From Asterochloris sp. CNOR1 (lineage: Eukaryota > Chlorophyta > Trebouxiophyceae > Trebouxiales > Trebouxiaceae): a stretch of 64,000 nt of DNA. Below are positions 6,886 through 64,000 of this stretch, piece after piece; the first letter of the stretch is position 1; every line of letters begins with the position of its first letter. The position numbers were made by a program, and so were the translations under genes. The notes below the pieces were generated by a model. The model was not told the origin of the DNA and did no database searches. It saw only the letters and a program-made list of their open reading frames with translations. Location of the stretch: NCBI GenBank assembly GCA_963969365.1, contig OZ017760.1, positions 1,984,001 through 2,048,000 on the forward strand, given 5' to 3'.

Positions 6886-9800
6886 ATGGCAAGAAGGGAC
6901 ATTGGGAGGGACACTGCCCCCAGCCACGACATTCAGCAGCCTCTTTTGGAAGACAGCGTGCTCCAAGACGCTGATGTGCTTGCAACACAGCAGGGCCTGA
7001 CCAAGCTGGCATGGGCAGTGGAGCTGGGAGCCCTGCTGCAGCTGGCAGCCCCAGTCATCATTCAGCTGGGCAGCCAGTATGCTGTGACCCTCACAAACCA
7101 GGCAGGTCTGCGGCTGATGCCAAAGCCCCACTCAGTTCATCTCTACTTCTTTCGAAGTCCTGGAGTGATCAAAGCACCTGTCATGCTGCAGCTCTTTGTT
7201 GGATCGCTTGGCCCGGAGCCTCTAGCAGCGGCAGCTATTGGCACCACCTGGTTCAACCTCTCGTTCTACTTCCTGCTGGGTAAGCTGCACTAACACGCTG
7301 TGTGAGCACGGCCCTGCATGCGACAGGCACTCTTGTCTCCACCTGATTGCTTGGCATGGGCTGGTGTTGGGCAGAGCAGCGGCCTGGGGGATGCCTGCAG
7401 GGCTATTGTGGTGGCTTGCACCCCCTGCCGCCGCAATCATGCCGTGCTGCAATGGCTTCCTGGCATGTACCTTTGCTGTTCAAAATCGTAACAGCTAAAC
7501 AGCCATGCCAGGACTACGCCATGTGGCGTGGAACCCTCCCTGAACACATGACTGCCAGGCGGAAGTTACTACCTTGTCACATGGGTCCCTCATGGTGCAA
7601 TCTTCTGATTACTTCTAAGGAACTGATCGGGGGCAGTCACGCTGGATTGTGTCAGGCCTCTTTGGAGCCTGAACTGGTGGATCCTGCATTGAGCTGCAGC
7701 CAGCATGTGATGGAAGCAATCTACATGTCTACATGCAGGTGCAGGAAGGCACAGCACCAGCCTCAGCGCGGCACGCCTGCTGACCACCGCTGCGGCGCTG
7801 CCTGCAGGCGCTAAGCAGCCAGGCCCATGCAGCTTGGGACGCGCTCTGCATGCTGCTGCTCATCTCTGCTGCGCTGGTGCCCTGAGGCAGCGGCGTCACA
7901 GCACACCTTGAGGCATGCAGGATGGGCAGCTTCAGTGCATTGCACTGCCCTGTATGGGTGCTGCCCACCACTCATATAGATAGCGCTGAGGGCCAGGCCG
8001 ATGGCAAGCATGCCTGTGGCGCAGGGCTGGCCTGCTGCTGCGTGTGCTGCTGAGTAAAGCTCATCTCTTCATCTCCTTTCCTGCGGGAGGGGCAGCAGGA
8101 ATCAACCCAGCTTTTGACAACTGGATGAGGCAGGCACATCACGCATGTCCAAGTCCATGGGGCACATGCCCAGCCACCTTCTGCTACCCCACCTGCAGGC
8201 ATCTCCACAGCTCTGGACACCCTTGGCAGCCAGGCTCATGGCAAGGGCAACTTTGGCGCGGTGCTGGCCTGCTGCATCAGCGCTGCCGGCGTGATGGGGC
8301 TCCTGTGCCTCCCCATCTCAGTCGCTCTGTGGTGGTCTGACACCGTGGCCCGTGTGGCCTTCCGCCAGAAGCCAGCAATTGCCTCTGTGAGCGGCTGGGC
8401 CTTGCTGCTTGAACAATGATTTTGCGTATGGTGCTTTTCCGCCCTGTTGCCTTGTGGTGATCTGCTCAAATGACCTTGTAAGTGACGAAACCTCACCCAG
8501 GAGTGCTGTATGGTGAGTTGCCAAGCTGGGTGATCGCCCTGTGGTGGCCTGACATTGCTGCCTACATGGTTCTCCCAAAAGCCATGCGCTGGGTCAGTCT
8601 GAGTTGAGCTGGCGTCACTGAGACCCGGCGATGCCTGTCATCAAGTGTACCATCTGGGGGCAAAGTCTTGCTGCTCATGAGACTGGGGTTTGGTCTGCTG
8701 CCCGGCACAGGGTGCTCGCTTAGCTAATCTCTGCCGGTGCACGGGGCTGCACCTGCCTGCCTCATCTCCTGCTGGTCTGTGCTGGGCCCACTGCCGTAGC
8801 AGGGTGATGCTTGGACCGCAAGAGGTTCTCGGAAACTGCTGATGCCCTGCCCTGTGCCTGCAGCTGGTGAAGGTCTTCTGCGCCTGGCTTATCCCTGGGC
8901 TCATCCCCTTTGTCTTTGCGATCATCATCATGAAGGTGCGCTCTGCCTCCAGCGTCTGCACAGCATGGCTTTTTTGCTGCTCATGTGGAAGGTAGGGCCT
9001 GCGCTGTGGCTTGCAGCCGACCTGCTGCTCCGAAGGCAGGTCAAGGGCCAGGCCCAGGACGCCCAGGGGCATTGCTGACCTGCTCATGCTTAGCCTCATG
9101 ACGGCGGCTGTCACACTACAGCATCACCATCCAAAACACAGATGAGGAACACATCCTTCCCCAAGAGGGGCATGGGCCCACCCAGGATCAATGTGACTGA
9201 AGACAGGGGCCTCACCTTAGTCTTCCGAGCAGCTTGGTGTCCCACCGCCTGCTTCAAGGGCAGCAATGCTCTGGCCTGCAGCACGCTCTGCTGCAATGCA
9301 AACATAAGGCTCCTGGCTGGCGCTTGATGGCCACAACAAGCCGGGCTCTGCATCCCAGAAACGGGCAGCGCTGCAGGGCAGCTAGGTCCACCTTACTGGA
9401 AATCCATTCGCAGGTGGCTGACTTCTGCTCCTTGGTGGAGCGAGAAGCTAACAGCCCTGCGCAGCATGGTTGACAGCGTCTTGGCCACTGAGTGGCAGCT
9501 TGTGAAGCCCCAAGCACAGGCCGTCCAAACAGAAAGGCGCCTGTGCCTGCTGCCGTGCACATGGAGCAGTGCCTGCACTGCTGCAACCAGGGCTGCTTTG
9601 TCCAAAGTCGTCTCAAGGTCTGGTTGTGCTGCGTGTGCAGGGCCTGCAGGTGCAGAACATGGTGTGGCCCCCCGCCATCATCAGCACGATCACAGCAGCG
9701 GTTAACGTGCCCGTCAATGCGATGCTCATCAACTGGTATGGATTCCACGGGGCAGCTGCAGCCACCTCTGTGACCAGGATCTTCCAGCTCATCATGCTCG

Positions 9801-12800
9801 TGGGTGAGCGCCCTTGGTTGCATTGTGGACTAGAGTGTTTCCTGCATCCCAAGATGGAGGGGCTGCTGGCGCCATGGCATGAGGGGCTCATGGCAGTCAG
9901 ATGTCACAGTGCCACCTGTGCAGTGTGGCACTGAGGCCGGGCAGAGTGCGGCCTGCTTTCTCAGAAGTTTGAGGGTTGCTGGGGCTACTTGCCCGCTGCT
10001 CGGACACTGGTGCTGGTCAAGCTTTCAATGGGCTGCGGAGGATCCTGCCATGGCAGCTGGCAGGCCCACTAGTTTTGCTCTTGTGCACTAGTGCTGCATG
10101 CCTCCTGCACTTCCCCAGCTTCTGTTCAGGGCTGTGGCACGGTGATGCTGCGGTGTGTACACAGCTGTGTCACTGCACCTCAAGGACTGTCTAAAAGAGC
10201 AGTCACTCTTGCCGCCTCACAGGCTAACATGTCTGGGTACAGAGCAGACACCTGTTGCCTGCCTGCCTGCAAGCCATACCACACCAGCACAGTTACGCAA
10301 TTGCCACTCCTCAACAGGCAGCCAATGCTGGGAAATCCCCAGTCTCAGTGCGACTGTGGACCATCTGCAGCCAGATTATGTCGCCTGGGGGGTGCCTCTG
10401 CCGCCTGCCTCAGCCTGCGTGCTCATGCCCACCCCGCCAGGCCAGATGCTGCCTGTTGGACAGCTGCATGTTTCCTGCATGCAATCAATGGATGATTACC
10501 TGACTCAATCAGGCTGGAGCCCCTGCTGTGGAGCCAAATGCTGCCTGCATGCGCAGTGCTTTGCTCTCCCCGTCCAGCCCCCTGCGTGCTGACAAGCCCC
10601 TTGCGCCTCCTCCCTGCAGCCTACATCCTCATCCTGTACATGTTCAGTCAGCCCACGCCCCCCATGCTGGAAGGCAAGGGCACAGCCACCGTCCTGGTCA
10701 ACGGGTCCCTCAGCAGCAAAGCCATTCTGAAGGCTGGCCTGCCCGGGCACCAGCAGGAGGAGCAGGAGGTTGCAGATGAGGTCCTTGAGGACGACTTCCC
10801 TGAGCCGCCACAGTACACCGTGACAGGCATTCTGCAAGGGGGCTTGTCAGGGCGGGTAAGTCGCAGCCCTTGTACAAAGGACAGACTTGGCGCATGACCC
10901 CAAAGGAGGGGTGTCAAGGCAGGCAGGGCTTGTTAAACTGTTTCAGAGACCAGCAGGAGGAGCAGCAAGCTTCAAGTCAGGTCTTCAAAGATGAAGTCCC
11001 AAGGCCACTGCAGTACACTGTGATGGATCGGCATCCTGCAGGGTGAGCTCTGAGGGGTTATGAGTTGTGGCAGCATGTACCCCTGGGCCTGCTGCAGGGA
11101 TGCTGTCACTACGTGGTGCCACTCCTGTGCATTGTGAAGGGCGGACTCCCGCAATGCATGATGCCTGAGTGATGTCTGGCAAGCGCAGGCTGAAGCTGTG
11201 TCAGGCTGTGTCAGCCAGGTCAGACTAGTGCAATGCCCAATGGAGGACTGCCTGCTGTGGATCAGGTGATGTCAGGAGGCTTGCGCACAGCAGTTGGTAT
11301 GGACGACACTACGCACCTGTGCCTGCACACTATGCCGGACAACTTGAGGTCAAGTTGCCCTGCCTGCATGCCATCAGGGATGTCCAGCTGCCTGGCGGTG
11401 CCTGCAGAGACATGGGTTTTGCCATCTGGAAAAGACAGCTGTAAGGCTTTGCGGCCCATGCTGCAGGCTGTCTTAAGCTTTGCCCCGCTGGGACCTGCAG
11501 GCAGTACCACGGCTGCTCACACTGCCTAGCAAGGTTGTGCTGGCCTGCATGCAGGCTGTCTGGAACTTCCTGCTGCTGGGGCTGCCTGGTGGCGTCATGA
11601 TGGCGCTGGATGCTGCCTCCTTCGACATCACCACGGTTATGGCCGGGTTCCTGGGTGAGTGTTGGAGGTGCTGCTGGGCGGTGTGATGCAAACAGCCTCT
11701 CTGGGAGCACCATGCCATGGCGGGGTCTCCATTTTGGGTGTGTGTACCAAGCAAGCAGCAGAAGAGAATGGGTAAGGCTGCGTCTGAGCAGCCCATGCTG
11801 GAGTGCTTGATGTTGCCTCAGCTGAGCCTGACCTGGATAGCAGGCAACTATTCAAGCCCTCTAGCTGCTGCTGACTGAAGCCTTCCGGGTTTGAATGAGG
11901 TGCTGACACCTGGTTGCTGTTACTTTCAGCGTGACACCATCCTGCATGTGTGCAGGCGAGATCCAGGTGGACGCCCACACAGTCCTGCTGACAACCTGCG
12001 TTTTCATCTACATGTCCTTCCCCTTTGGCCTGGCCACTGCCAGCACCATCAGGGTGGGCAACCTGCTGGGCTCCTACCAGCCGGGCCTGGCCAAGCTGTC
12101 AGGTGGGCCTACAGGGGCCCTGCCCCACATGTCGCCTGGCGCTGCCTCACACCTCCATAGCCCTGACAGGTCACTCCTGCTGTGGGCTGCGTGCAGTCAC
12201 AAGCAACGCTATCACGGGTCTTGCCTGCCAGCCGCTTGCCACACTGCCCCAGCGGATTGGGCCTGGCAGGCCGTGTCCGCCGCTGCAGGCTATCAATGAG
12301 CCTGCCTGCCTGCCTGCTGCTGGTCACCCCGATTTCATGCTCCGGCTCCCATGTTCTCTTCTTCACAGTCCAATGTGCCTGTGCAGACCTTGTGCCAAAA
12401 ACTGTAGGCGCAGCCTGTCTGGCCAAAGCTGCTTCACCTTACACTTGGTGCTGCAGCTTGCACTGGTACCGTTTCACCGTGCTGACCTGCCTGCAGTTGG
12501 CTGAGGGAACCCTCGTTGCTGCAGACACATCGCCGCCATCTTAAGCATTGCCTTCCCGGGCCGGCTTGCCTGCAGCTGGCTTATGGAGCCCTTACTGCTG
12601 CTCCATACATCGCCGCCGTCACAGGCACTGCCTTCATGGGTGTGCGCTGCCCGTTGCTTGCTTGGGGAACCCTTGCTGCTCCCAGCTGTGCTGCCACTGT
12701 CACACCCACTGCCTTCACAGGGCTGCCCTGCCTGCTGCTGCCTCAGGGGTCCCCATGCTGCCGCAGGGTACGTTGCAACCGTCACAGGCACTGCCTTCAT

Positions 12801-14245
12801 GGGGCTGGCCTGCCTGCTGCTGGCCACGCTGCGCTGGCGCATTGGGCCTGCCTATGTGGACGACGCAGAGGTGGCTGCCCAAGTGGCAGCTGTGGCCCCC
12901 ATCTCTGCAGTCTACCAGATTCCTGACGGCATCTACTGCCTGGCCTCGGGCGTGCTCAGGTGAGCTGTGATGGTTGCTCAGCAGGCGGGGTATGCGCTGT
13001 GTGCAGCAAGGATGCCCAGGCAGACTGGGCCCACACTGATGCCTGCGTGGCTGTTGGACGGACAACTCTGGCAGGCAGCAAACTGAAGGAGTCCGCGGCA
13101 AGGGTCCAAAGCAGAGCAGCTTGGCTGCCCCAGCCCATGCCAAGTGGTCCGATAGTGTCGCTCTGCAAAGCTGCGGGCTGTGAAGGTCCTTCCTCATTGG
13201 GCAACTGAGTTGCTGCCTCTCAGTGCCTGGACTTTGATTTTGCTGCAGGGGCCTGGGGAAGCAGGGGGCGCTTGCGTGGATCAACCTGATCAGCTTCTGG
13301 GCCGTGGGCGTCCCCACAGGGCTGACCCTGACCTTTCCCCTGCACTGGCGCCTCAGCGGCATCTGGTGGGGCATCGTCACAGGGGTCTCTGTGGCAGGTG
13401 AGCCCCTGTTCTTGTCTTGTCTTCCTGTCTCTCGGTTCTGTTCTTTCTGTCTGAGCAGGGCAGGCCCTGTGCTGGAGCTTGCCCTGCAACCATCCCAGCA
13501 GGCAGCTGGGGATGATTGCAAGTCATTACTTTTGCAACACGCAGCAAGGCACTGCCTTGGTAGCCCTGCTGCGCATGGCTTGCTACATCTGAGCTGACTG
13601 CTCCCCTGCTATGGCCTGCAGCTGTGTGCTGCCTGGTGGCCCTGTTGCGCATCGACTGGGAGACAGAGGCAGCAGATGCACACGCTGCGGCTACTGCTGA
13701 CATGGCGTCAGCTGAGTCCTCCGCGGGCACCAGCCCTACCTCGCCAGCTCAGATGCCAGCCCTCACCGGTATGACACAGCTTGCTGCTGCATACTGCTGT
13801 GTTTGGAAGTTACGAACTGTGCAGCCTGGCGGCAAGCTTGCCTCAGCTAAGACTGTCTGGCCCTCCCATGAAGGGGCAGATGCGGCGTACAAAACGCCCC
13901 AGGCGGCTGCTTCAGAAGTGTGCATGCAAGACAGCTCTGTCAGCTCAGCCAACCCTGTCAAGGGCCTGCATGCTGCGCTGCCTCGCGGCCGACCAGCAGT
14001 GCCTTCTTGCAGGGGACCTGGAGTCTGCAATGGCAACCCCAGAGTCCAGGTCTGGGAGGGCCACTCCCATCCGGAGGGTGCCCTCGCGAGGGAGTCGCGA
14101 CATTCCCATCGGCCACCCTGTGCTGGGCAGCTATGCAAGCAGCTGTCGCAGCTCGAGCAGCCTGGTTGACCGCAAACTGACAGGCGTCTTCGGCAGCCTG
14201 CAAGGTGTTGACCCCATCTCGCGAAGCTTTGCGCCTCACCACTAG
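6886..14245 (+). CDS. MATE-family multidrug/toxin efflux transporter
   Basis: A multi-exon gene for a multi-pass MATE exporter, which in plants and algae moves organic cations, flavonoids or citrate out of the cytosol in exchange for H+ or Na+. The exon model is 6886-7101, 7192-7279, 8199-8386, 8864-8935, 9641-9803, 10620-10855, 11534-11654, 11956-12102, 12767-12959, 13249-13397, 13622-13768 and 14013-14245. Phases agree throughout and give 650 residues. Diagnostic MATE motifs are ALDTLGSQAHGKG near residue 106 and IRVGNLLGSYQP near residue 393 (family form RVSNELGA). Exon 6 encodes an acidic, Gln/Glu-rich loop of about 60 residues, and the last exon a Ser/Arg-rich tail; these explain the length against the usual ~500. 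The first intron uses GC-AG. The acceptor of exon 7 is the least certain. Substrate and membrane cannot be told from sequence. Confidence 0.88.
7810..8600 (+). repeat. Degraded copies of MATE exon 3 in flanking introns
   Basis: The exon at 8199-8386 contains GCAGCCAGGCTCATGGCAAG and GGTGCTGGCCTGCTGC. Related but broken copies lie upstream at about 7815-7860 (AGCAGCCAGGCCCATGCAG) and 7990-8050 (GGCCAGGCCGATGGCAAGCA, then GGGCTGGCCTGCTGCTG). Another lies downstream at 8531-8590 (ATCGCCCTGTGGTGGCCTGACA, matching the end of the exon). None keeps the reading frame. Confidence 0.7.
10947..11042 (+). repeat. Near-complete ghost of MATE exon 6 with splice-like ends
   Basis: This 96-base block repeats the acidic-loop exon at 10620-10855: CCAGCAGGAGGAGCAG, then a GATGA(G/A)GTCC-like stretch, then CAGTACAC(C/T)GTGA. 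It begins after TGTTTCAG and ends before GTGAGC, so it has plausible acceptor and donor sites. Read in the phase required by its neighbours it hits a TGA, so inclusion would truncate the protein. It is either a decayed duplicate or a poison-type cassette exon. Confidence 0.65.
12433..12766 (+). repeat. Four degraded tandem copies of the start of MATE exon 9
   Basis: Units of about 82 bp precede the true exon start at 12767. The recurring pattern is a CTGCAG-like acceptor, CATCGCCGCC-type bases, GTCACAGGCACTGCCTTCA, then GGCTGCCCTGCCTGCTGCTG. Copies begin near 12433, 12515, 12597 and 12678, and the functional copy runs from about 12760 into the exon. Only the last keeps the reading frame into the transmembrane and VDD-containing segment. 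Confidence 0.75.
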
Positions 14246-14514
14246 TCGCCTCACCACTACTTTCTTAGCCAGACCTTAGAACATGACTCAGTATTCAAAA
14301 AATGATGTCACAGCAGTGCTGTTCAGCCCAAGACACGTCTCGCTCGGTGTCCAGTGTGCCAGTGGTGCCTTGTGATTGATACATATCATGCCCTCTTATG
14401 ACAGTCACCCCTGCGGCCAGTAGCCGCATTTCACGTTTGCAGCGCTCCATGTCATCTCTTGGTAGAAATAGCTAGAGAAACAGCAACTTCTTCCTCTACT
14501 TATCACCAGTCATT

Positions 14515-14860
14515 TGGAAAGCCATGTCTCAGAGGCAGCACTGGCATGGGATGCAGATGCCAGCAGAGGCTTGGCAGAGCAAGGTCAGCAGCTTGAGCAG
14601 CCTCACCAAGCTGACACTGATCAGATTCTTCATGAAGAACTAGGATTCGGTGCTGGGGGAAGTAGGCATGCAGGGCGCCCTGCGGCAGCTGCCAGCGCTG
14701 CACTCCCTGCACTGCCCAGTCATGTTGACATGGCAACATTGTTGGAAGGGCTGGGTTTGCTCAAGGCCTGGCGTGGTGGGCTACCAACAAGTCAAGAAGC
14801 TTGGACAGCAGGTGTGCCTCATGGATGGCCTGACTCTTTGACAGCCTTGCATTAGCTGCA
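14515..14860 (+). pseudogene. Decayed 5' copy of the F-box/leucine-rich gene
   Basis: The segment from 14519 (CATGTCTCAGAGGCAGCACTGG, then GCAGATGCCAGCAGAGGCTTGGCA, AGCAGCTTGAGCAGCCTCACCAAGCTGA) is a diverged copy of 15990-16090 in the gene downstream. It continues through the equivalents of the bases coding for HVLRQL and LLQSLNCL. Its reading frame is interrupted, and the F-box part is not found beside it. It looks like a tandem duplicate that lost function. Confidence 0.65.
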
Positions 14861-15178
14861 CAGCTGAGACTCCACATGCATCCCCAGATGAGGATGCAGA
14901 GTTGACAAGAGCTGCATCTTCCTGAAGCCATGCAGTAACTGCATAGATTGCTGTGCCAGCCATGCCTGCTTAGCTTCAGTCTTCTGCCTCAAGCAGTTTT
15001 GCCTGTCCGACAGGTCCCCCTTTCTCTCACCTTACCATATCTGCCAGGCACGCCTGGCTCTTGTTTGGACAGATGTCATGAAGTCCGCGTCAAGGACTGT
15101 AGTTCAATGCTGAGACTTGTCGGGGCCAGCAGACAACAAGCTGGTTTTGCACAGGCTGCCTGACAACTCTGGCATAGC

Positions 15179-16945
15179 ATGAGCACCATGGATCAGGGCA
15201 GCAGCTCAGATGAGGGTGTGCTGGCACCTCCAGTGGGGCGCCTCGATCTGCTGTGTGAAGTGCGCCCTTCATTGATCAGGTAGCTCCTGCTGGTTCTGCC
15301 TTCAACAGTGGTCAGGGTGATGTCGCGCAGTGCCAGATCAGGTCTCCCAATCTATCAATGTGCTGTTGCAGCCTCTAGGCCTCCCCACAGACATCTTCCG
15401 GCGTGTGCTTGCAAAGGCAGTGCAGCAGCATGGCACTGCATCCAGCCTGAGGCTCACCAGCCGCAGCCTAGCACATGAATGTGGAGCAGCGCTGGTGACA
15501 GGTAAGACAGCGTGCCAAGCACAGAATTCTCCGTCCTTGCAGGGGGTGCACGATGCTGCTCTGCCCCTTTAGCTTCAAAGTGAGCTGCTGTACTCAGACA
15601 TTGCAGGCACCCTTTCCTGGAGGTACCACAGCTGTACTTAGTGACCTTGAGAGGAATAGAGTCCTCAAGAGCAAGAGAGTCTGAGCGAAGAGAGTTTCAG
15701 CACTGGCTGTGGCAAGTGGCGTCCTCCAGCGCGCCTTCCCCAACAGCACCCTCAAGCTGGACGACTTCACCAGCACAGCAGGAGATGCGGACACTGCGGA
15801 CATTCATCACCTGCTCAGGTGCACAGAGCTCAGGAGTATCACTTTCTGCCTCCACCCACGGGTGACAATCAGCTCTGGCAAGCCATCGCCGCTCTGGGCA
15901 CGCTACATGGCAGCCGCTTGCAGCTCTAGGCAAGCAGATCTGCTTGCCGTCTTACCATAACGGCATGCTGTGGGCAGAGCCTTCGCTGGCCGCTCACGTC
16001 TCAGAGGCGAAACTGGAGTGGGGTGCAGACACCAGCAGGCGCTTGGCAGGCCATGTCAGCAGCTTGAGCAGCCTCACCAAGCTGATGCTGCCCAGTCACG
16101 ACCCAGTGCTGGAGTCAGCAGGCATGCTGCACGTCCTGCGGCAGCTGTCACTGCTGCAGTCCCTGAACTGCCTGGCCGACATCATGCAGACACTGCTGGA
16201 AGATTCAGTCCCCCGCAGCTGGCCACTGCTGACAGAGCTGCAGCGCGGCAAGGCTGTTGGCACCATGATGGACGCCTGTGACTCACCAGACTGGTCCCTT
16301 GTGGAGCAGCAGTGTCCCCAGCTGCAGGCACTGGCCATGGACAATGCCATCCCACTGTGCCTGACGGCCCTGACCAGCCTGACCTGCCAATACTGGCTGC
16401 CCCAACACACAGGCAGCTTTCAGTGCGCTCAGCTGCGCCGCCTCCATGTGCTGTGGGAAGCTGATCTCAGCTTGCTGCCCAGCGCACTTACAAGCCTCTC
16501 CCTGAGCTCTGTTCGTGGGCGGCCTTTCGCAGTCATGCGCAACCTTCAGCGTGACCTTCAACATCAGCACCTGAGAAGCCAGCAGTTCCTGGTTCACATC
16601 TGTTTCGCGTCTCTGCTGCCGGGCCTTTCATCAGTCCAGGGCCTTATGCCAGCCCTTCACACTGTTCTAGCCACTTCTGTGACATCTGTTGAGCTCTCTA
16701 TTCATCCGCGAGCCTTCTCCCTACCCAACCCGGACGGCAGCATGGCTGGGCAACACTTCCATAACCTTGGTGTATGGTTCCCACAATTGCAGCGCTTGCA
16801 CATTCACTTGCACTGCAGACCACCAGCTGAAGGGGTCCTAATATCAGCTGCATGGCTCCCAGCGCACTGCAGACTTGTTGTCACGCACAAGTTTGGTGTC
16901 CCAGTCCGTATTGTGAAATATCCCCCTGGCTGCATGCCCTGCTGA
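15179..16945 (+). CDS. F-box-like / leucine-rich repeat protein
   Basis: The model starts at 15179 (MSTMDQGSSSDEG). An exon carrying LGLPTDIFRRVLAKAV and SLRLTSRSLAHECG has the layout of an F-box: a Leu-Pro start, a helix, then the R-L-x-S-R-x-L turn. Further exons include one from about 15701 and a long one from about 15944 to the stop at 16945. The long exon is rich in Leu at spacing typical of LRR proteins (SLSSLTKLMLP, LRQLSLLQSLNCL, LTALTSLTC, LPSALTSLSLSS, FPQLQRLHIHLH). Such proteins usually select substrates for SCF ubiquitin ligases and are abundant in trebouxiophytes. Between 15880 and 15945 the frame changes without a clear intron, so a sequencing error, a tiny intron or a real frameshift is possible. 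The first exon junction is also uncertain. Confidence 0.6.
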
Positions 16946-16956
16946 TGAACTAACCA

Positions 16957-16966
16957 TGTAATGTAA
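16957..16966 (+). terminator. Candidate poly(A) signal, doubled TGTAA
   Basis: TGTAATGTAA lies 12 bases after the F-box gene stop. TGTAA is the common green-algal polyadenylation signal. The implied 3' untranslated region is short, and a later signal could be used instead. Confidence 0.5.
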
Positions 16967-17759: not shown

Positions 17760-17764
17760 TTACA
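17760..17764 (-). terminator. Candidate poly(A) signal TGTAA of the kinase gene
   Basis: TTACA on the plus strand reads TGTAA on the coding strand, about 27 bases after the kinase stop codon at 17791-17793. Confidence 0.45.
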
Positions 17765-17790
17765 GGAGGGAGGGAGGCGCCCAAATACAC

Positions 17791-32632: not shown

Positions 32633-32759
32633 TTGCTAGCACAGATCAGGCAGCAGCCTGTGACATACAGAGCCAAGGCCAGCAAACACACCTGGCGCCC
32701 GTCACAGAGGAGGATTCAGGCAGAGGAGGATGCAGGCAGATTACATGGCATCGACAATG

Positions 32760-39273: not shown

Positions 39274-40095
39274 TTTTGCCCAGCCTTTTGCACTTCAGCC
39301 TGCCTGTGACACACCGTCAAAGCTATGTAGTACAGAGTTTTATGCAAAATGGCACAGTTTCCGCACAATAGAACCAGGCCTCTTCGTCCAGAATTGTTGG
39401 CGCATGCCACATCGTGGCGCTTTCGAACAACAGCCATGAGTGCCTTATGAAGGGCAAGCCCAGCACAGCTGACCATGTGTTTTGACTGTTCAAGATGCTA
39501 TGCGCATTGCATTTGCCCAGTGAATGCCACACTTTGCCCATTTATGCATCGAAAGGGCAGTAAGTGTTGACTACCGGGAGATTCTGTTGGTCCTCGAGCA
39601 CGGCATTGTTGCAGGATGAGGCTGTCATTGCATGGTCTGGCAGGCTGGCTTACCCTCAACAAGTGAAACTCCATGTGTGTCAGGTAGGTTCCCGATAGCC
39701 GTGATACGGAAGCCAGTAATCTTTCCATTTCGACAGGCAGGATACAGCTAGCGAAGGAGTTTTGCAGAGTCCCTGCAGATCTTGCTTGCCACTGAGTCAC
39801 CATGCAGTGAGTGCCCAGACCCTGCTGAGCTGACGACCCCGAAGCCCAGCATCCCAGCATCCAACGCACATCAACTGCAATGGGGTTGCTGCATGCATAC
39901 TTGCAGCAACCATGGATATGCCTGCCACTACGATGAGCACATCTGCACATGCATTACAAGACACGCCTTGTCTGGGTGCCTTGCCAGCCTCACGAGAGAT
40001 CAGCACTGATGATCCTGCATGCTTCAGGCATGACTGACAACACAGCTGCTGTCATGCCTCCCCAGTCTCACAAAGCGCCTGCCTGGTGCAGGACC
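39274..40095. other. Intergenic stretch between phosphatase and aldehyde dehydrogenase
   Basis: About 0.8 kb between two plus-strand genes. It should contain the phosphatase 3' untranslated region and the aldehyde dehydrogenase promoter. No TATA box, repeat or RNA gene was recognised, and no TGTAA signal near the phosphatase stop. Confidence 0.5.
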
Positions 40096-47622: not shown

Positions 47623-47672
47623 GCCTGGATGCCGGAGTCTGCCTGAATGAGATGCCTTGTTAGGACCACAGT

Positions 47673-47677
47673 TTACA
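47673..47677 (-). terminator. Candidate poly(A) signal TGTAA of the dolichol kinase gene
   Basis: TTACA on the plus strand, about 73 bases past the dolichol kinase stop at 47750, lies between the two convergent coding regions. Confidence 0.45.
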
Positions 47678-47749
47678 TATGTGTCAGGCTTCATGTGCCA
47701 TTTTGGTCTCTTTGCTGCTGAACCTGATCATTTGAGTGATGAAGTTGCT

Positions 47750-50700
47750 TCAAACTGAGAGCATAGCCATGTAATGAATTGGAATGAAGATGTTATCCAA
47801 CTGGGTTGTGGATGCCTCCAGGACGCAGGATAGCGTTGAGGAAACCAGCAGTGAAGCCCACATTGGACTGCAGAGAACATGAAGAGTCTGATTGCTGCAC
47901 ACTGCCAAAATCGTGTCAAGAGCCGCCCAGCTGAGCATGGTGCATGCCACAGCTCCAAAGGTGCCCTCCATTGTCTTTTTGGTGCCCTGGCAGATCCTAT
48001 GCCTGCCCCAGCGCTTGCCGATGGCTGAGGCTGCAGTGTCTGCCACTCCAAGGGCCATGATGCCAGCCAGCGCAGGCACAGGCACGCCACGAAGCCTGCT
48101 GGTGCTGCCTCGGAGGCCCGCTCTGGATTTGTTTGCTGCTGGACTCAAGGTGCTGAGCCAGACAGGGACAGCCATGCCGGTGAGCAACGAGAAGTGGCTA
48201 ACTAGCAGGAGGCCCGAGTCCCTCCCATCCGTGAAGGAGATCATGAAGTGATGAATCTTTTCACCTGCAGGCGTGCAGGAGCGCCTCAGGCCAAGTCTCA
48301 GTCTGATAAGCTCATCACTGACAGTAAGCATGCTGGCAAGCCTCTTGTGGGAGACATGTGGATGATGCTGTCTGCAGCCAGGCTTCAACATCATCCCCTG
48401 GCTCAAGGCCTCAACTGTCTAGCCAGGCGGCGCGTTTCAGCCAAGCTTTTCCCCAATATTCTGGCCCCAAGTCCAAGTTTTGCATGGAGACCCCCTCCCA
48501 AACTCCTGCAGCACCAGCAGCGCCAGCACAACAGGTGGTCTGACATGCTCTTACCTGACTCTACCTCCCAACCCAACAAACCCAACTTGCCCATGAAAGG
48601 TACCTCCTCCAGGCCAGAGCACCACCTCCATACGCAAAAGCGGCGCCAGAGTGACAGGCAGGGATACCAACAACAGCTGGGGCTCCAGAACCAGTGCAGG
48701 CAGCAATAAAGTAGACAGCTGATGTCACCCCCAAACCAATGACCTGAGCTGTAACCCACCTACAAAGGGCACCAGCCCCAGGCGCACCACCTCCACGGCC
48801 ACCAGCAGCGCCAGAGCGACAGCCAGGGACACCGCCAGCAGCTGTGGCTCCAGGATCAGGACGGGACCGAACAGAGCCAGCGCGAGAAGGTGGTACCCCT
48901 TTCTGACCAGGATGGTGGGCATTGCATGGGCTGCAGAGACCCAGTGGATGAGTGGGAGGCTGGCCGCCAGGAGAACTGCCCAGTAGAGCAGCAGACTGAG
49001 GCCCCGGGGGGTGGCGGCCGCGAAGGAGAGGACCCACAAGGCGGGCCGGATGGCGCTGGCAGCGGCCGCCAAGAGGATGCCTGCAAGGGACGGCAGTGAA
49101 GGATGAGCAGCTGAGTGGACAGGAGCTGGATGAGGAGGCCATGACAGCATCGGCTGATGCGCAAGGTGCTGGTCCAGGATTGCATCAACATTGACAGTGG
49201 AGGCAATAAACAGAAGAGCTGCTGAAGGGCACCTGTGCATACCAGAAGAAAGATGACTGCAGCAAGTGAAAGCTGACCAGGCTGATTCGCTGCATGGTGG
49301 CAATTGCAATGCAGAGGCCCCACAAAGCCACAACATTGGCTTCCGCCCGCAAGGCAACCCATTGCTCTAGTTACGCTCTCAGCACATGGAAGCATGTGCT
49401 GCAAAGGCAAAGACCCACAGTCTTCTGCAGAGCTGATTGGCTGTGGATAGGGCGCACATCAGCCTCCTCTTTCAGGCAAAGGGAGCTCTCTCTGCTTGCT
49501 GTAGCAGGTCTGTGCAGAAGTTTGAGTGCCCACCTGCACATGCCACAGCTGGCACTCCCGCCCGCTGCCCTTGCGTCACCTGCTGCATGGTGTGCCGCAA
49601 TAGTGGGGTTGCTGCAAAGCCCACCACCAAGCTGACAAAGACCAGCATCTCGACAAAGAGCGCTATGCTACTGCGTCCTGCAGATGCCTGCAGGTGCAGG
49701 CATCCAGCATCTTCAGCAGAAGTGAGCAGCCAGTCATGGTGGGCACATCTTGAAGAGGGTCTCTGAAGCCAAGGTGCCCCTGATCAATTTGACACCATCA
49801 GGTTAAGCAGAGGTCCCCCTTGATAGCTAGGCGTTCAGACACAGCACAGGAGACCCTGCCTGACACATCTTCCTGGGCCCATCAGGTGAACAATCAGATA
49901 AGCTCACCTCTCCCTTTCTTGCTGCTAGGGAGATAAGAGGTGGCAGCGCATCACATACAAGCAGGGATCCAGAGCCGGCAACAGCCATAGCCTCCCCTGC
50001 AGGGCAACACACAGGCAGCTCAGGTGAAGATGGCCTGGTCACAGTCAGGCACCATGATGAGCTCCAGCGCACAGATTGCGGCCAAGTTGATGGCTTCCTG
50101 CTAGGTCTTAGACTGTGGGGCAGAAGATCTGAGGTAAGGCTGCAGTCCTTGCCAAAATACAGAGCCACAATGCCTGCACTATGGCATTGAATGTATCAGG
50201 GAAGCATCAACTTCACATGCTTACCGACTGTGAAGCTGCGCGGGCAGCAAGCCAGCAGGCAGTGCAGCACCCCTGCTGCCAGCACTGCGTTGGCAGCTAC
50301 CAGCAGACCAGCAGTGCCTCTGCCTGGCCCAGCGAGCCACAAGGTGCGTGCCAGCAGCATTGCAGCCAGCAGGGGCAGAGCCATGCCTGCTGCCCCCTTG
50401 AGGGCAGCAGCGCTGCTCGCAGGGCCGCCCCTGCCTGCCGCCAGCACTGCCTCGCTGCGTGCTGGCTGCGTTGCCTGCTGGCCCCTGCGTGGGCTGCTGC
50501 TGCTGCCAGAGACAGTCATCCCCCGCATCAGAGGCACTGTCTGCCTTCCAGCCTCCTGGCTGTGGCCGAGGTGCAGTGGTGTGGAAGGCTGCTCGGCCTG
50601 GCAGTCCAGGACAGCGTTGCTGCTGGCTGACACAGGAATGCCAGCAGAATGCAGCTTGGGCTTGGGCATGCTCTGCTGCTCCGCGGGTGTCCATGATGCT

Positions 50701-55300: not shown

Positions 55301-58300
55301 GGCTCAAACTGCCCTTGGTGAGTCAATAGCAATTGCCAGAACGATTTGTTACTTTTTGCCATATTGCCCTGCCGCCGCAGGCGCACAACCAGCATTGCTT
55401 ACATCTCATAGTGATGGCTGACCTCACAGTTGGCATCCCTCTGCTGTTGCAAAGGCATAGAGCTTGAGCATCTGTTCTGAAAACGGCGCTTGCAGCAGGT
55501 AGAATTGTCTTTGTGTCTGCAGGCATGCAGCAGAGCTTTCAGTCAGCTTCAGTCCAGGCTGGGCTCTCTGCCCTCTCAGAGCCAGCAGTGCGAGCCTGGG
55601 AGCAGCCGCAGTGGTGTGGTCAGCAGGCCGTCTGCTCAGGCGGTCTTGCGAGCAGCAACAACGCAACACTGCGCCACCTGTGGGAGGAGTGCAGCACCGA
55701 TCTGGCGCTTCTGCTGCAGGCAGACCAACCAGGTGGCAATTGTGGACCATGGCGGAAGGTAAGTGTAGCTTTCTTTGCTTGTCTACCCATGCAGGGACTG
55801 CGCTGGCAGCATGCCATGCTGCAAATATGTATCATTTGCTTAAGGGAAGCATCACTCAAATGCTTGACAGGTGCTGCTTGCCTGCTAGGCTTCAACACTT
55901 GACTGACGTAAGCTGCTTAAATGCAAATGAGGGGCAGCCTGCCCAGAGCAGCACTGACGCAGCACTGCACCCCACCTGTCCTTGCAGGCCCACTCTGTTC
56001 AGGCGTCGCTGCAGCTCATGGCTGCAGACATCGTCCACAGCAGCGTGGGCCTCCTGCAAGGCCTGGTGCACTGGCTGCATGAGGCCCTTGCCCAGATCGG
56101 GGCTGTGGGCAGGCAGCTCCAGGAGGCTCACCAGCAGCTGCAGGCGGTGGTCAGCCAGAAAGAGGCTGAGCAGCAGCTTGCGGCTCACGACAGCCTCAGC
56201 CGCTGCTGTGCCAGCAGTGCTGCGGCACTGAATGTGGCTGGGGGGCTACTGCAGAGGCATGGGCAGTGCAGGCAGGCAGCGCTGGCCTCGTCTGGGTTTG
56301 GCAGAGCTGCCCAGGTGGGTGGCTGGAATCGGCTGTGGGGGGTTCAGCAGGCACAATTCCATGCTGTCTGTCCACTGCCTTGCATTTCTTGCCTGCTGGC
56401 ATCAGCGTCAATGCTGCACATGCTGTGCAGACTGCTGATGCTGTACTGCCTCCTTCTGCAGGCTGGTGCAGGGGGGCCTAGACAGCACCGGCAGGGTGGT
56501 TTCCGCTCTCAAAGGCTTCAACTGCAGTCCTCAGATGGCTCCTTGCCTCCGGCCGGCCCCACCCAGAGCACAGGCCGGGCTGTACTGGGTCAGTCGCAAT
56601 CAACTCTGGAGGTGCCGTGCTTGCCCTCAGGTGAGGTTGTGCACAGAAAAGCAAGCACTGTTTGACCACTTGTATCAGTCTGGGCCTCGATCTGGCCCTG
56701 ATCAGTTGTATCAATCCAAGCCGTCATCAGCCCCATGTCAAGTTGAAGCACTTGGCTGTTGCGTGATCAGCAGCGCTGCAAATGTGCTCTCCCACACTTC
56801 AGGCCAGGCGCAAGCAAGTGAGCCTGCTTGTGGGCGGCATCATGCTTGTGCCTCAGCAGAACCTGGGCCTGCTGCAGATCACAGCACGTCACCTGGCGTC
56901 CTTGGGCTCATGCTGGAGCTACTGGGTGCAGCCCTCCAGCACAGCAGCCGGCTGGAGGACAGAGTGCGTCGCTGCAGCAGGCATTCAGACAGTGACATCC
57001 CTTCAGGCTCCAGGGGCAACTTGCAGGGCCCCGCAGCTAGGGCGGATAGCCTCAGCTCAGCAGCATGGCAAAGTCTGGCAGCATGTCAGGTAAGCTCCTC
57101 AGCATGTCGGTGACTCACAGAAAGGGTACTAGCGGAGTGTGCAGCAGCTGGCTTCTTGGCGTGGTGGTGTGGCGCCCAGGTGTGCCTTCCATAACCAGGC
57201 ACTTTCTTCATCTTAGCTTGCAATGGTCATGGCTGTATGGCCATGGCTGACCTGGCCCGCTGCCCTGCCTGCAGGCTTTGGCAGGGGCTGCTGTGGCGGC
57301 CAGTGCCATGTTTGTGGCATGTGTGCCTGTGTCAGAACAGGGCCACCTATCAGCAATTCCGTCCTCAGGTCTGCAACACATGCATCAGGCATGCATGCTG
57401 CTGGTGTTTCCTTGCTGCCATGTCTCAGCTTCACGCAAACCCAACATTTGCCTGCCTCTGTCTGCCCTGAAGTAGACACAGCTGCCGCAGTGTCTCAGTG
57501 CATACCTGGCAGGACGGCTGCTGCCTCAGCCTTGTCCCTGAAAGGCATGCTGCCCACTGCAGGCGCCTTCCAGCAGCTGGCTGCATCCCCCTACCATGAG
57601 CTGGGCTTCCTGTCCCTCTTGTTTCAGCTGACACAGAGCAGCGCAGTCTGCAACAGGCTGCTGGCAGACTGCAGCCCATCTGCAGCAAAGCTACAGAAGG
57701 GTACTGCAACCAGGTCAGGTGCAGGACAGCAGGCACAGCAGCCCGGAGGCTCAGCAGCATCACTGGATGCCACAGTGCCGGCACTGAGGGAGACGGTTGA
57801 TGTGGACATGGCTGACGCAGAGGGGACAGCCAGGTGGGCTTTCCTGCGCCATATGCGGTCCCTGCAGTGCAGTTGTGACCTCAACAGCTGCCAGTTGTGT
57901 GACCTTCCACGACCTGCTGCAAGCATCTGACGCTTTTGTCTTGTGCAACCCTCTAGGGCAGCCGCCTTCTGGACACAGGGTCATGGCAGGACCCGGCTCA
58001 GCGCCACTGTAGATGTTGCAATCATGCACATGGCGCCCACAGATAGATGCCCTGCTGTGCAGGGCAGGCAGCAGCTGGACCATCCTTGTGGCCCTGCAGC
58101 ACAGCCTGCAGCCGCCTGTGTTGACCCCTGAGCACCTGCTGAGCACCCTGCAGCAGCAGCAGGTGCCGGTAGCACTGGGGGAGGCTTCTAGCTCTGGCGC
58201 TCAGCCAGATTCATCTGCTGCAGCTGGCTGGACGCCGCAGCAGCTCCTGGCAGCTGCTGAGAGGCAGCAGGCCTCGCACTGGGGCCTGTACGAGCGCCAG

Positions 58301-60159
58301 AGGCGAGCACTGCAGGTAGCGCAGCCCCCGCTTGTCTGTATTGGTGGCCCTAGTAGGTTTCCTTGCAGCACAGCCCTGACTGACTGCTCAGGTGGCTGTA
58401 TGAGCGCGCTGCAGGTGGGACTTTGGTAGGGCAGCAGGTGCTGATATAAGTCTGTAGGGTGTGTAAGGTGGCCTTCTGAGTGTACACGTCTGGCCATCAC
58501 AGGCCAGTTAGCAGCGCAGCCCCTGTCTAGAGTCACGCTGAGACCTGTATGAGCGCCAGAGGCGGGCCAATGCACGTACAGCCCTGCAAAGCATGCTCCC
58601 TCTGTACTGGGGGTTAACGTGTCCTGGCAGCAGTTCATGCTGCTTCAGACAGAGGACAAGCTACCAGCTGCTCATATGGGTCGCAGCTTGTGTGCTCTGC
58701 ATGATCAGGCTGTCAAACACGGCGTTATGGCCTGACGCCCCTGAGTACTGTGGCTTATAGACTGCACTGACATGCAGCTCACACCTTGCATGCCTGCAGA
58801 TCCTTGCCATGCTGTGGCGCCAGGGGCAGCAGGAGCTGCTGCTGGACCTCATCTTGGGGAGGGAGCCTGGCAGCGCGCCAGGCCTTTGCCAGCAGGTGCT
58901 GGCTGTGGTGGACGCGGCAACCAGAGATCCCTTAGGTGAGGAGAACACAGCGCCTGCTTGGCCACTGCTGTGCTCGACGGTGCTTGCAGATTGCTGGCTT
59001 TACATACCGCCCAACTTATGTGCTTCCTCCAGGTGCCCTCAGGGCTTCTTGAAATCTGTTTCAGTAGGCCCTAAGGTGTCAAGCTGTGCTGTGGCCTCTT
59101 GCCTGCCAGTCTGGCAAACAGCATGTAGCGCTGCCCCTGCTCCCCCATCTTCATGTTCTGCAAGCAGCCGCCAGCCCTGGCTGCTTGCAGGTGGGATTGC
59201 AGCCCCCTTCCAGGAGCCGGCCTTTCCCGGCAACCCTGCTGAGGCCCTGCAGCAGCCGACCGCCGCCCTGCACCGCGCTCTGCAGCGCTGCCATGTCGGC
59301 AGCGGGCACAGCAGCCAGGTTCGTTCTGGCAGAGCAACTCAGATTGACACTGGAAGCAGGGCGCCTCGAGCAGGGCCCAGGACAGCCTCAGCACATGCAG
59401 CAAGCCAGCCACAGGTGCCTGTGGCTGTGACCCTGGCTCAGCTCAGCGTCGAGCAGCAGGCTCGCCTCCAGGGCATGCTGTGGTGGCAGGGGCTCAGACT
59501 GGCTCAGGAGGGGCTGACGCTGCTGAGGGTCCTGCTGAACGGCGATCAGACCGGTGGGTGCTCAGCATGAGAAGACTGCCTGCATCTGGATCAAGCCTGC
59601 ACCGGGGCGGCTGAGGTGCAGGGCTGCTTCTGCATGGAGGCTGCTGGCGAAGGTCTCTGTGTGGTGCCAGGCAACTCCATGCCTCAAAGCGCAGCATGAT
59701 TGCAGTGCTGCTTACAGACAGACAAGGTATCTACTGTGTGCATGCTAAGTCTCACCCCTACTGCCCGCCCAGCAGCGGGGGGGTGGGTCAGGAATGGCTC
59801 ACCGCCCAAACAGCCGTAGGTCAGGAGGCCCACCACCTCGGGCCCAAACACAGCATTCTCTTCGCTGTGCAGGGGCTGCTGCTCTGGAGGACTTGACCGC
59901 GTCCTCATCAGCGCTCAGGCTGGGGCTCGTCACCACAGCACGGCTGATGCAGTGGCAACCCCCGGTCGGCACTGCTGGAGGTGGGCAGCTGGGTGTGGCA
60001 GTGCTTTGGACGCTGCCATCTATCTGTCACGTGGCGGCCACGGACATCGCCGTCTTGCGCTATGACGCTGCTTTGCCTGCGCTCCTGACAGTGCTGTTCA
60101 CTGAGGGGGTTCACGGCTCGACGTCCACATGCGCATTGGCAGCAGCGGCTGCTGCATGA
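52322..60159 (+). CDS. Coiled-coil protein, possibly ATRIP-like checkpoint adaptor
   Basis: The first exon (52322-52399) encodes MADVFDDDDPFLDNVDIDSL, an acidic amphipathic start resembling the RPA70-binding motif of ATRIP. The next exons (52479-52738 and 53020-53349) are Gln/Pro-rich and lead into a coiled coil (QARLQVLQQERDRLKAE; RMQLDGAAKQRDSLHRQLQR; ERNERLQEVQASLAQRKSEV, 53.3-54.5 kb). A basic KRRRDVEAS near 55220 could be a nuclear signal. From about 55.5 kb to the stop at 60157-60159 helical, Leu-rich blocks follow (LMLELLGAALQHSSRLEDRV, GFLSLLFQLTQSSAVCNRLL, AMLWRQGQQELLLDLILG, LRLGLVTTARLMQW), as in the helical-repeat half of ATRIP. ATRIP recruits the ATR kinase to RPA-coated single-stranded DNA. 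The assignment rests on domain order and the acidic motif. Several splice junctions and the 3' end are unresolved. Confidence 0.5.
58275..58575 (+). repeat. Ghost copies of an ATRIP-like exon end
   Basis: The exon end CTGTACGAGCGCCAGAGGCG near 58288 (LYERQRRA) recurs as GCTGTATGAGCGCGCTGCAGG near 58395 and CTGTATGAGCGCCAGAGGCGG near 58544 in the following intron. The stretch AGCGCAGCCCC also repeats (58319 and 58511). Confidence 0.6.
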
Positions 60160-61588: not shown

Positions 61589-64000
61589 TCAGATTAGCAT
61601 TATACTCTCTGCACAAGCAGGCGGACACTTGGCATGCCCCCAGGCATGGCTTGCATTACCAGCCGCCGCCGTCTGACAGCTGAAGCTCACACCGCAGTGT
61701 GCCGCCTGCTCACAGCATCCTGTGTCCTTGTTGTACAAGCAGCCAGTGCCGGCAAGTCTTGCTCCCCCCAGCAACAAGCTCTTGTTTGTTCGCCATGGCT
61801 ATTTCATTACTTTGCTACAGCATACCAATCAAAGCGGCAGCAGACTCCAGCGATCAGGCTCAGCTGGCACTGTGCTGGCCATCCTGCTGAGAATCCACGC
61901 TTAGCTAAATCGATCTGTGCATGTTGACCTGTGTGCATGCGCTGCCCTGCCTGCCCCCATCCCGGCCCCTTGATTGGCAGTGAGCATGCCCAGACCTTGG
62001 GCCTGCTCGTCTGGGAAGCTTACCCTGTTGCCACCTCTCCCAGGCCCTCCCCTGCCGCCGCCACGGCCACGCCCGCCGCCCCCTCGCCGCTGGCCCCCAA
62101 AGTAGCGGTGTGCGTTGGGCAGTGTGCCAAAGGTTTCAGCGTCCTGCTTGCGCTGTTCCTTGAATGGCGCGCGGCGGCTGCCGGCTGCAGGGCAGTAAGG
62201 TTCAGCATGCCAAACTGCTCTGACAAGCTGCCTGAGGAGTGTGATGCTACCTGAACGGCACGCAGCGGCCGTTGACTGCAGCACACAGGGAGGCAGTGTG
62301 CCGTGAGTACCTGCATCCTGGCTGTGCAGGACTCACAGCCATTACTGGCTCAACTCCACTTGGTGCACGGCCGCTACACACGCAGCGGCTGCGCATCCCG
62401 TTCCAGTCTGCCCTGCACAATTACCTGCTCGCCACACCTGCTGGATGCATGAGCTGCTCACCATGCCTCACAGCAGAACAAGGTGCCCAGAAGTGTGGCC
62501 TCAGAAGTCTGCAGGGACAGGCAGCGGCCCACAGTCCAAGCAGCTGCTGCTGAACCCCTCTCCCAGGATGCCTTAGGAAACAGCCTGGCCCCCACACCTG
62601 GCCGCGAAACAGACCACCCTGTCACCTTTGCTGCATGCTTGTGGCATTGCTGGTGACGGCCTCAGACTGGCAGGCATCCGAAAGGGGCCTCTGGCCAGCT
62701 GCATCCTGACTTGGGGCCATGCCCAACCAGCTGAAAGCCAGGATCGATAGAGCCAGCCCCACCTGTGGCATCGCTGGACATGGTGTCAAAAAAGTCGTCC
62801 TCAAACTTCTCCTTGCCTGGCTGCTCATCCCCCTTTTCCTCTGCCTCCTGCAGCTGGAGAAACCCATGAGCGGGCATACTGCAAACAGGTACCACAGGAG
62901 CAGAGCGGCTGCTCAGTGGCGCCCCATGAGCTTCCTGCAGCTGGTGGAAGACAGTGCAAGCAGATGGGAATGTAGGCACCTGTGTGTGCGGCTGACTGCT
63001 CATGCCCCTGCCCCTCAACCTCCTGCAGCAGACAGAAGGGAGCCAGGGGCAGTACACCAGTCACAAATGTCTCTGCAAAAGCTTGGCTGCCCATGTCCTG
63101 ACTCCTCTGCCTCCCACCCGCAGCGGAAAGGAAGTCATGCACAAGAACAACCCATACCTTGACCGTTCATCAGACTTTGAGAAGAAATGAGCAGCATCCA
63201 TGCAGTTTCACCTTGGCACAGGCCGCCATGTTTCTAAAACAATTTTTTGGGGTGCGGCGCCAGGAGCCGACAAATCAGGATGTCAAGGATTGCAGAATCA
63301 TGTAAGCCTGTTGCCCACCTTGACCAGGTTGTCCTTGTTGAACTTGGCAAAGGCTGCCTCAAAGTTGAAGTCCTCCTTGGGCACCTCCAGCGGGGGCTTC
63401 CTCTCTGCATCCCGGCCACCACCACGGCCACCGCCCCTGTGCCCACCCCTGCGCCCACCGCCTGCAGGGAGGCAGTTGGGCTGTCAGTGACATGACATGC
63501 GAGGTAGGCAGCAGACATGGCCATGACTCTGCATGGATGCGCTTGGCATCTCGAACCCACCCACAGAGCCCACCCCTGCACCTGCCGCCGGTAGGTGCAC
63601 ATGCCATGCACGCTTGGCACCCCACTTTCCAGCTGTCCAGCAAAACTCAACAACCACGCTAGGAAGATGCCCAGCACCGATGGGCAGACCTTGGCTAGGA
63701 AGGATAATGCAGGTCAATGCTGCCTGCCGGCCAGAGAACTTTGGTGGGAGGCATTTCGCCACCTGAGCCTCTGCCACCGCCGCCGCCACCGCCGCCTCCA
63801 CCACCGCCTGCTGCCTGGGCAAACGAGGGCTTCGCCTGCACAGGCCCTGCCGTTGCCTTGGCTGCAGCTGCAGCGGCCTGGACTGCCGGGGAGCCGCCTG
63901 CTGCCCCAGTGCCGTTGGCCTGCCGGGGTGCAGTGATCACCTGCCCATTTGCGCTGGTTGCATACATGCCCGGAGGGTGGCCACCTGGTGCCTGCAGGGC
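61589..64000 (-). CDS. LSM14/SCD6/RAP55-family mRNP protein, 3' part
   Basis: Minus-strand gene cut by the right edge; the N-terminal LSm domain lies outside the window. Exons seen are 63991 to about 63763 (Ala/Gly-rich linker with a poly-Gly run), 63461-63319 (RGG repeats, then LEVPKEDFNFEAAFAKFNKD, an FDF box), 62847-62763 (KEKFEDDFFDTMSSDATG, an FFD box) and 62184-62024 (KEQRKQDAETFGTLP, a TFG box, then GGGGRGRGGGRGG). The order FDF-FFD-TFG-RGG is the family signature. These proteins repress translation and assemble P-bodies with the DDX6 helicase and decapping factors. The last exon is uncertain: one candidate starts at 61672 and stops at 61589, but a reading ending GGGW would look more natural and needs another phase. 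Confidence 0.82.
62763..63030 (-). repeat. Tandem ghosts of the FFD-box exon start
   Basis: On the coding strand three blocks about 87 bases apart begin with CTGCAG: from 62847 GAGGCAGAGGAAAAGGGGGA then TGAGCAGCC (the working exon), from about 62935 GAAGCTCATGGGGCGCCAC then TGAGCAGCC, and from about 63021 GAGGTTGAGGGGCAGGGGCA then TGAGCAGTC. The upstream two lack the FFD motif. Confidence 0.7.

Follow-up and report, generated by a model that had tools for sequence, protein, structure and literature searches.

In a stretch of 64,000 nucleotides from the green alga Asterochloris sp. CNOR1 (contig OZ017760.1, here C15, positions 1984001-2048000; the whole stretch is hereafter called the window, in a genome of 56.4 Mb and 21 contigs), introns carry decayed copies of the edges of neighbouring exons, in the same orientation, which we term exon ghosts. 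Very probably, the ghosts are the remains of random local tandem duplications whose extra copies splicing could skip, and in one protein kinase gene such duplications multiplied exon-intron units. Under this reading, short segments (~50-700 bp) would be copied beside themselves at any position. Where a duplication ends in an intron, or has its ends in two different exons, splicing could skip the extra copy, which would then decay within the intron into an exon ghost, leaving that intron longer; the ghost would stay recognisable since its exon counterpart is presumably held fixed by selection. A copied unit with a whole exon and matching intron phases could become a new coding exon, a step that would have been repeated in the kinase gene.

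A preliminary description of the window had read the copies as a generator of both exons and introns. Local tandem duplication as their source is supported by the excess of direct over inverted copies and by the sense orientation of the exon-edge matches given below. Exon generation is supported for one gene, the kinase gene at ~17.8-28.9 kb, and intron generation through duplicated AGGT motifs was not borne out. As background, the genome of Asterochloris glomerata is 56 Mb with 9 introns per gene, and its GC content is 56-62% across 98% of the nuclear genome (PMC6652019).

Exon ghosts in the MATE, ALDH and PAP genes

Three genes of the window were modelled exon by exon, and each model reaches one terminal stop:

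6886-14245, plus strand: MATE transporter gene, 12 exons as modelled, 644 amino acids, clean reading frame, Pfam MatE (E=2.6e-37, first 469 residues of the model)
33375-39273, plus strand: purple acid phosphatase (PAP) gene, 18 exons, Pfam purple acid phosphatase match
40054-47622, plus strand: aldehyde dehydrogenase (ALDH) gene, 16 exons, 554 amino acids, Pfam Aldedh (E=1.7e-181)

The end of MATE was set to 14246 in our scripts, while the true stop ends at 14245. The PAP model, which was built by eye, is 100% identical to jgi/Astpho2/8275 over 606 amino acids, and Trebouxia relatives of the MATE protein are 40-52% identical to it. No protein named Astpho2 was among the 47 matches listed for MATE; the PAP and kinase queries found one each.

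Each of the 43 introns of these genes was compared with both flanking exon edges (86 probes) against a null of 300 length-matched pieces of other introns. At p<=0.01, 10 of the 86 probes matched in sense, where 0.9 would be expected, and 1 of the 86 in antisense. Significant ghosts occupy nine introns, namely MATE introns 2, 3, 6 and 8 (four of 11), ALDH introns 4, 5, 8 and 9 (four of 15) and PAP intron 11 (one of 17). Ghosts with their exon counterparts are as follows:

7992-8038, plus strand: ghost of part of exon 3 in MATE intron 2, copy of 8229-8275 (79%, E=2e-3; 0 of 300 null draws as high)
8534-8584, plus strand: ghost of the end of exon 3 in MATE intron 3, copy of 8322-8374 (75%, E=0.65; 0 of 300 null draws as high)
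10949-11056, plus strand: ghost of the 3' part of exon 6 in MATE intron 6, copy of 10749-10852 (70%, E=2e-7)
12103-12766, plus strand: MATE intron 8, several decayed copies of the intron end plus the start of exon 9, for example 12162-12265, 12429-12661 and 12688-12766 (best E=1.5e-18)
42315-42355, plus strand: ghost of the start of ALDH exon 5 in intron 4, copy of 42453-42492 (E=4.7; 0 of 300 null draws as high)
42927-42971, plus strand: ghost of part of ALDH exon 5 (42531-42579) in intron 5 (E=4.7; 0 of 300 null draws as high)
45318-45413 and 45511-45605, plus strand: two related ghosts of the start of ALDH exon 10 (45666-45708) in intron 9 (E=0.09 each)

Ghosts lie mostly in long introns. 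The median length of the ghosted introns (n=9) is 664 nt as against 234 nt for the others (n=34; Mann-Whitney p=5e-5), and ghosts occur in 8 of 14 introns of at least 440 nt and in 1 of 29 shorter ones. Since the null was matched for length, this link is not merely the effect of a larger search space. The position, orientation and decay of the ghosts, and their link to intron length, are direct observations. In an alignment of nine relatives of the MATE protein, out of 47 listed, no inserted residues were found within 8 amino acids of the four ghosted MATE introns, so the MATE ghosts are not coding in those nine relatives.

Self-comparison of the three genes with blastn at E<=5 gave 12 direct pairs within 1.5 kb, no inverted pair and two direct pairs further apart. 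Exon sequence is present in exactly one copy in 11 of the 12 near pairs, and the twelfth links two ghosts of one ALDH exon. In order to see what placement without any preference would give, we simulated duplications at random positions on the three genes, with 13 sizes of 100-674 bp picked from those seen and without duplications having both ends in one exon; 62% of the tolerated duplications took in at least 20 nt of exon. Given this share, no exon preference need be assumed.

The copies do not generally begin at a CTGCAG acceptor, as the preliminary description had it. Among eight acceptor-side pairs in MATE and ALDH, two begin within 5 nt upstream of the exon, and the other six begin 26-172 nt upstream of it or 7-30 nt inside it. 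Among the acceptors of the 43 modelled introns, CTGCAG is the most frequent (23 of 43), and 37 of the 43 read TGCAG.

The same description saw in the ghosts the intermediates of intron gain, in which exonic duplications that contain AGGT create introns. Tandem copies of exon edges are real, and yet we consider such a role for them improbable. An exonic AGGT duplication would copy the surroundings of the junction, so donor and acceptor surroundings should match in register; when they were compared in this way, 4 of the 43 introns showed similarity at p<0.05, with ~2 expected. On looser measures, at the same threshold and expectation, the intron start resembled the downstream exon start in 5 of the 43 introns and the exon end resembled the 3' end of the intron in 7. 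The first 150 nt of MATE intron 8 and of ALDH intron 9 resemble the start of the downstream exon, and none of the 42 other exon starts scored as high. However, each of these two introns contains several copies and not one GT-to-AG unit, ghosts lying close to the ends of introns would account for the out-of-register excess, and 34 of the 43 introns have no significant ghost. Among the 43 introns, we found none newly made by duplication of an exonic AGGT. The pattern is one of lengthening of existing introns and, as described next for the kinase gene, of multiplication of whole intron-exon units.

The kinase gene and its mini-exon array

The kinase gene (~17.8-28.9 kb, minus strand) contains seven direct pairs at E<=1e-3, and Pfam Pkinase matched on a 151-residue piece of it. 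A paralog on contig C12 is ~67-76% identical in the longer matches and is collinear through the introns. Both genes hold an array of putative mini-exons, seven in the window (23.67-25.18 kb) and six in the paralog. All 13 are multiples of three in length, measure 45-78 nt and have a TGCAG acceptor in front. We assigned them by eye, from the exon starts, to three classes, G, A and P. Those of the window are listed with the two tandem duplications of the same gene:

25104-25172, minus strand: mini-exon W1, class A, 69 nt, present in the Astpho2 protein P0030 (see below)
24882-24926, minus strand: mini-exon W2, class P, chimeric, 45 nt
24665-24712, minus strand: mini-exon W3, class P, 48 nt, donor GGGAGC, with a usable GTGGGG donor one codon earlier
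24436-24480, minus strand: mini-exon W4, class P, 45 nt
24185-24250, minus strand: pseudo-exon W5, class G, carrying a stop in frame and a GC donor, and missing from P0030
23899-23967, minus strand: mini-exon W6, class A, 69 nt, donor (23893-23898) ATGAAC, with AT for GT, present in P0030 nonetheless
23673-23738, minus strand: mini-exon W7, class G, 66 nt
27438-28837, minus strand: tandem duplication with a spacing of 674 bp (27438-28092 and 28112-28837), one copy being a ghost with a fusion of an exon start to an exon
23439-23529, minus strand: young 46-bp tandem duplication with 95% matches, of which the C12 paralog apparently has a single copy (L027 5731-5773, which aligns with both)

Differences at codon positions 1, 2 and 3, counted between same-length pairs within classes, numbered 42, 51 and 88, each out of 225 sites. 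The counts come from 12 pairs and 10 of the 13 exons, including the broken W5 and W6; W3, C2 and C3 have no same-length partner and were left out. An excess at third positions is as expected of coding exons, which these putative exons would then be.

P0030 (886 amino acids, jgi/Astpho2/8277), a model of the kinase protein that others had built, contains W1, W2, W3, W4, W6 and W7 consecutively and in frame, and W5 is absent from it. Its name includes fgenesh, an ab initio gene finder. It differs from the window at several residues, as judged by eye, so the two are not the same sequence. The donor site of W6 may differ between strains.

Class P appears to be composite. In mean score, the 80 nt upstream of the P exons match G (31.9) far better than A (10.7; shuffled mean 7.8), whereas the downstream 80 nt resemble A (42.8) rather than G (12.2; shuffled mean 9.2). 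These flank scores give class P the acceptor side of G and the donor side of A; identities computed with free end gaps had left the classes unseparated, and local scores took their place. Exchange inside exons of classes G and A would thus produce the chimeric P exons. Unequal crossing over within exons could explain them, and a deletion running from a G exon into the following A exon would leave the same product; the flank homology itself is observed. The order of the classes is A-P-P-P-G-A-G in the window and P-G-A-P-A-G in the C12 paralog, and since these differ, the array changed after the two kinase genes parted. Together, these features support multiplication and recombination of the predicted mini-exons within the kinase gene.

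The duplication with 674-bp spacing is single in the C12 paralog. At its junction the start of one exon is joined to a copy of the preceding exon and, by eye, the fused piece stops or loses the frame; P0030 splices past this ghost. The two copies and C12 show mutual identities of 0.786, 0.81 and 0.783, and since the three are alike, the duplication is about as old as the split of the paralogs.

Local repeats in the window and in the genome sample

We searched the window, and a sample of 18 stretches of 10 kb from contigs C1-C18, for repeats by blastn self-comparison at E<=1e-3; two further contigs fell short of the length required for the sample. The window gave 19 direct pairs, spaced 120-3123 bp, and 2 inverted ones. 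In the sample there were 22 direct pairs and none inverted, with pairs in 12 of the 18 stretches, so that the pattern is not confined to one contig. Counted by eye as separate places, repeats number 10 in the 64 kb of the window and 17 in the 180 kb of the sample, and the window is not clearly richer. At the loose threshold of E<=5, applied gene by gene within 1.5-1.6 kb, the window held 38 direct and 5 inverted pairs, three of the latter in its leftmost 6.9 kb. Over the 41 pairs of window and sample at E<=1e-3, the median spacing is 229 bp (quartiles 169-485), roughly in agreement with the units of mostly 80-145 or about 225-280 bp given in the preliminary description. Self-comparison by blastn is blind to copies less than ~50 bp apart, and such copies come from Tandem Repeats Finder (TRF) only.

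Sequence rich in CAG and CTG might be suspected of producing such similarities by chance, and CTGCAG does occur 249 times in the window, 1.8 times the 137.5 occurrences that dinucleotide shuffles predict. An order-4 Markov sequence of equal make-up gave no pairs, however, and of the 153 comparisons that could be made between stretches on different contigs, the 48 that were run gave no match. With the inverted pairs and antisense probes also near nil, chance similarity can be taken as refuted. Neither of the two outcomes that the preliminary description had set as refuting it, a ghost frequency no higher than in shuffled sequence and absence from other contigs, came about. Copies of a transposon or of introner-like elements are scarcely more credible: the direct copies in the window lie within 3.2 kb of each other, and similar introns dispersed over many genes, which would mark introners, did not appear in the same between-stretch comparisons.

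The density of local direct repeats was tried as a special trait of this genome and rejected. With E. coli K-12 alone as the yardstick, 10 stretches of 10 kb at equal settings gave 12 direct and 2 inverted pairs. The resulting 1.2 direct pairs per 10 kb equal the Asterochloris sample (22 in 180 kb), and therefore repeat density by itself is ordinary. Judged by their position in the annotation, the direct pairs of E. coli belong to rows of tRNA genes, to Rhs/H-repeat regions, to adjacent paralogs (yfeC/yfeD, cysW/cysU) and to a single intergenic stretch.

For the sample, coding sequence was called from codons, with MATE, ALDH and PAP serving both for training and for checking; on these same three genes the call recovers 74-86% of exon bases and marks 2-5% of intron bases. 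Of the 22 sample pairs, seven have one copy only called coding (14-100% of that copy), four both and 11 neither, a split that fits duplication without aim. At L018:8496-9910, tandem repeats lie within sequence for which both copies were called coding; it probably encodes a repeat protein.

The repeat record is mostly old. Identity is 65-81% in 39 of the 41 pairs and reaches at least 85% in just two, both of them 33-40 bp long; support for the intermediates of different age proposed earlier is weak. This degree of decay also bears on whether the ghosts could be functional, kept as alternative or poison exons for regulation. Some do retain an acceptor or a donor, and the ghost at 10949-11056 has CTGCAGGGTGAGC (by eye). 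Against this stand the low identities, the frame-breaking changes seen by eye, the nine MATE relatives without such residues and P0030, which skips both the 674-bp ghost and W5; we think a regulatory function unlikely.

Other loci of the window show local copies as follows:

14523-14748, plus strand: fragment copying part of an F-box/leucine-rich repeat (LRR)-like gene (15995-16202), 1.5 kb away (78%, E=1.4e-30)
48596-48694 and 48765-48859, no strand assigned: local duplication in an unmodelled stretch (78%, E=4e-12)
58533-58632, plus strand: copy of 58274-58370 in an ATRIP-like gene, by eye an exon end plus donor (77%, E=6e-4)
62817-62854 and 62992-63029, no strand assigned: weak local pair in an LSM14-like gene (82%, E=0.03)

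The first of these is a broken tandem gene copy or gene fragment and not an intron ghost. Its F-box/LRR name is that of the preliminary description, and a Pfam scan of the reading frame found no family at E<=1e-3. The names of the oxidoreductase, ATRIP-like and LSM14-like genes and of the genes at 48-52 kb come from the preliminary description or from our own reading of the sequence. In the oxidoreductase gene (29.2-31.1 kb) there was no pair even at E<=5. Six genes had initially been named as carriers of ghosts: copies are seen in MATE, ALDH, the kinase and the ATRIP-like gene, the F-box/LRR case is the fragment just mentioned, and the LSM14-like pair reaches E=0.03 only. Local same-orientation copies are therefore far above chance, but they do not extend to most genes, as PAP (one intron of 17), the oxidoreductase and the LSM14-like gene illustrate.

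At the left end of the window, a segment of 0.7-0.8 kb that looks non-coding is repeated 3 kb off (25-868 and 3073-3976, ~72-76% identity). Further direct copies lie there at 1410-2480, and one inverted pair at 1668-1760 and 2372-2470.

Weight of the evidence and relation to known processes

Several points weigh against random local duplication followed by decay as we have outlined it. The pairs that contain exon sequence (11 of 12) exceed the simulated 62%, although the 12 near pairs are not independent, since they lie in seven introns (0.62^7 ~0.04). An exon copy held by selection may keep a ghost recognisable for longer than two free intron copies would remain so, but this explanation of the exon excess is one that we infer. 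The reading does not account for the gap in ghost rate between MATE, ALDH and PAP, and ALDH intron 8 and PAP intron 11, both ghosted, yield no BLAST pair even at E<=5. Young copies are few, where steady duplication alone would be expected to leave more; the rate of duplication over 60 bp may therefore once have been higher, or young copies may be lost. In the kinase gene, the three-way identities fit both a gain of the 674-bp copy on C15 and its loss on C12. Being a gene prediction, P0030 is not proof of expression, and we infer the splicing of the mini-exons and the skipping of ghosts from sequence.

Internal gene duplications are common (Gao and Lynch 2009, as cited in PMC4974935), and the tandem duplication of segments within genes is known to take in exons and whole introns. 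The Asterochloris copies agree with this in being local, in the same orientation and above chance, and in containing exon sequence or boundaries, in 11 of 12 pairs in the three genes and, elsewhere, by coding call in at least one copy of 11 of 22 pairs. They differ in that most of the copies found survive as decayed intron ghosts, and no newly created intron was seen. In the RNA-dependent RNA polymerase (RdRp) gene of potato, a tandem duplication crosses an intron-exon boundary, and the duplicated segment spans an intron end and an exon start, as in MATE intron 8; in potato, however, it made a new intron, dated by means of relatives, whereas here the extra copies lie within one intron (PMC4974935). 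Tandem duplication has been called an under-appreciated route of intron gain with in vivo support (PMC3443670), and intron gain from duplicated AGGT goes back to Rogers 1989 and Hellsten 2011, as described in PMC3443670 and PMC4974935. It shares with our case the tandem duplication within genes, but here in-register introns are no more than expected.

The kinase array has its counterpart in the LRR genes of Tetrahymena, where tandem arrays of 90-bp exons have undergone extensive unequal crossing over (PMC6564038). Both have rows of short exons in one intron phase whose copy number shifts, in the kinase gene presumably, by unequal crossing over between exons; in the kinase gene, matching phase, an order that differs between paralogs and recombinant exons were all found. 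Tetrahymena has thousands of such genes with a fixed 90-bp phase 2 unit, whereas Asterochloris has one gene pair with exons of 45-78 nt in reading frame 0, plus chimeric exons. Boundary-crossing duplication and the growth of exon arrays are thus already in print (PMC4974935, PMC3443670, PMC6564038), and the copies are a clear example of a known process and not the undescribed one that the preliminary description had proposed. Among the open-licence papers listed, we saw none that deals with exon ghosts or with duplication of this local kind for Asterochloris or any other member of the Trebouxiophyceae.

A bolder generalisation, which we offer tentatively and think rather doubtful, is that in this lineage long introns are built mostly from decayed exon edges and owe their length to local tandem duplication across splice junctions, while duplications with both ends in frame-matched exons give chimeric exons that multiply. 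If it were true, one gene pair and its introns would preserve exon birth, multiplication and death together.

Because the exon copy serves as a fixed reference, ghosts allow the lengthening of introns to be read in a compact algal genome, and the kinase pair offers an unusually clear and concrete example of exons being gained, recombined and lost. The pattern suggests that intron-borne exon copies may arise from random duplication together with splicing tolerance, without a mechanism aimed at exons.

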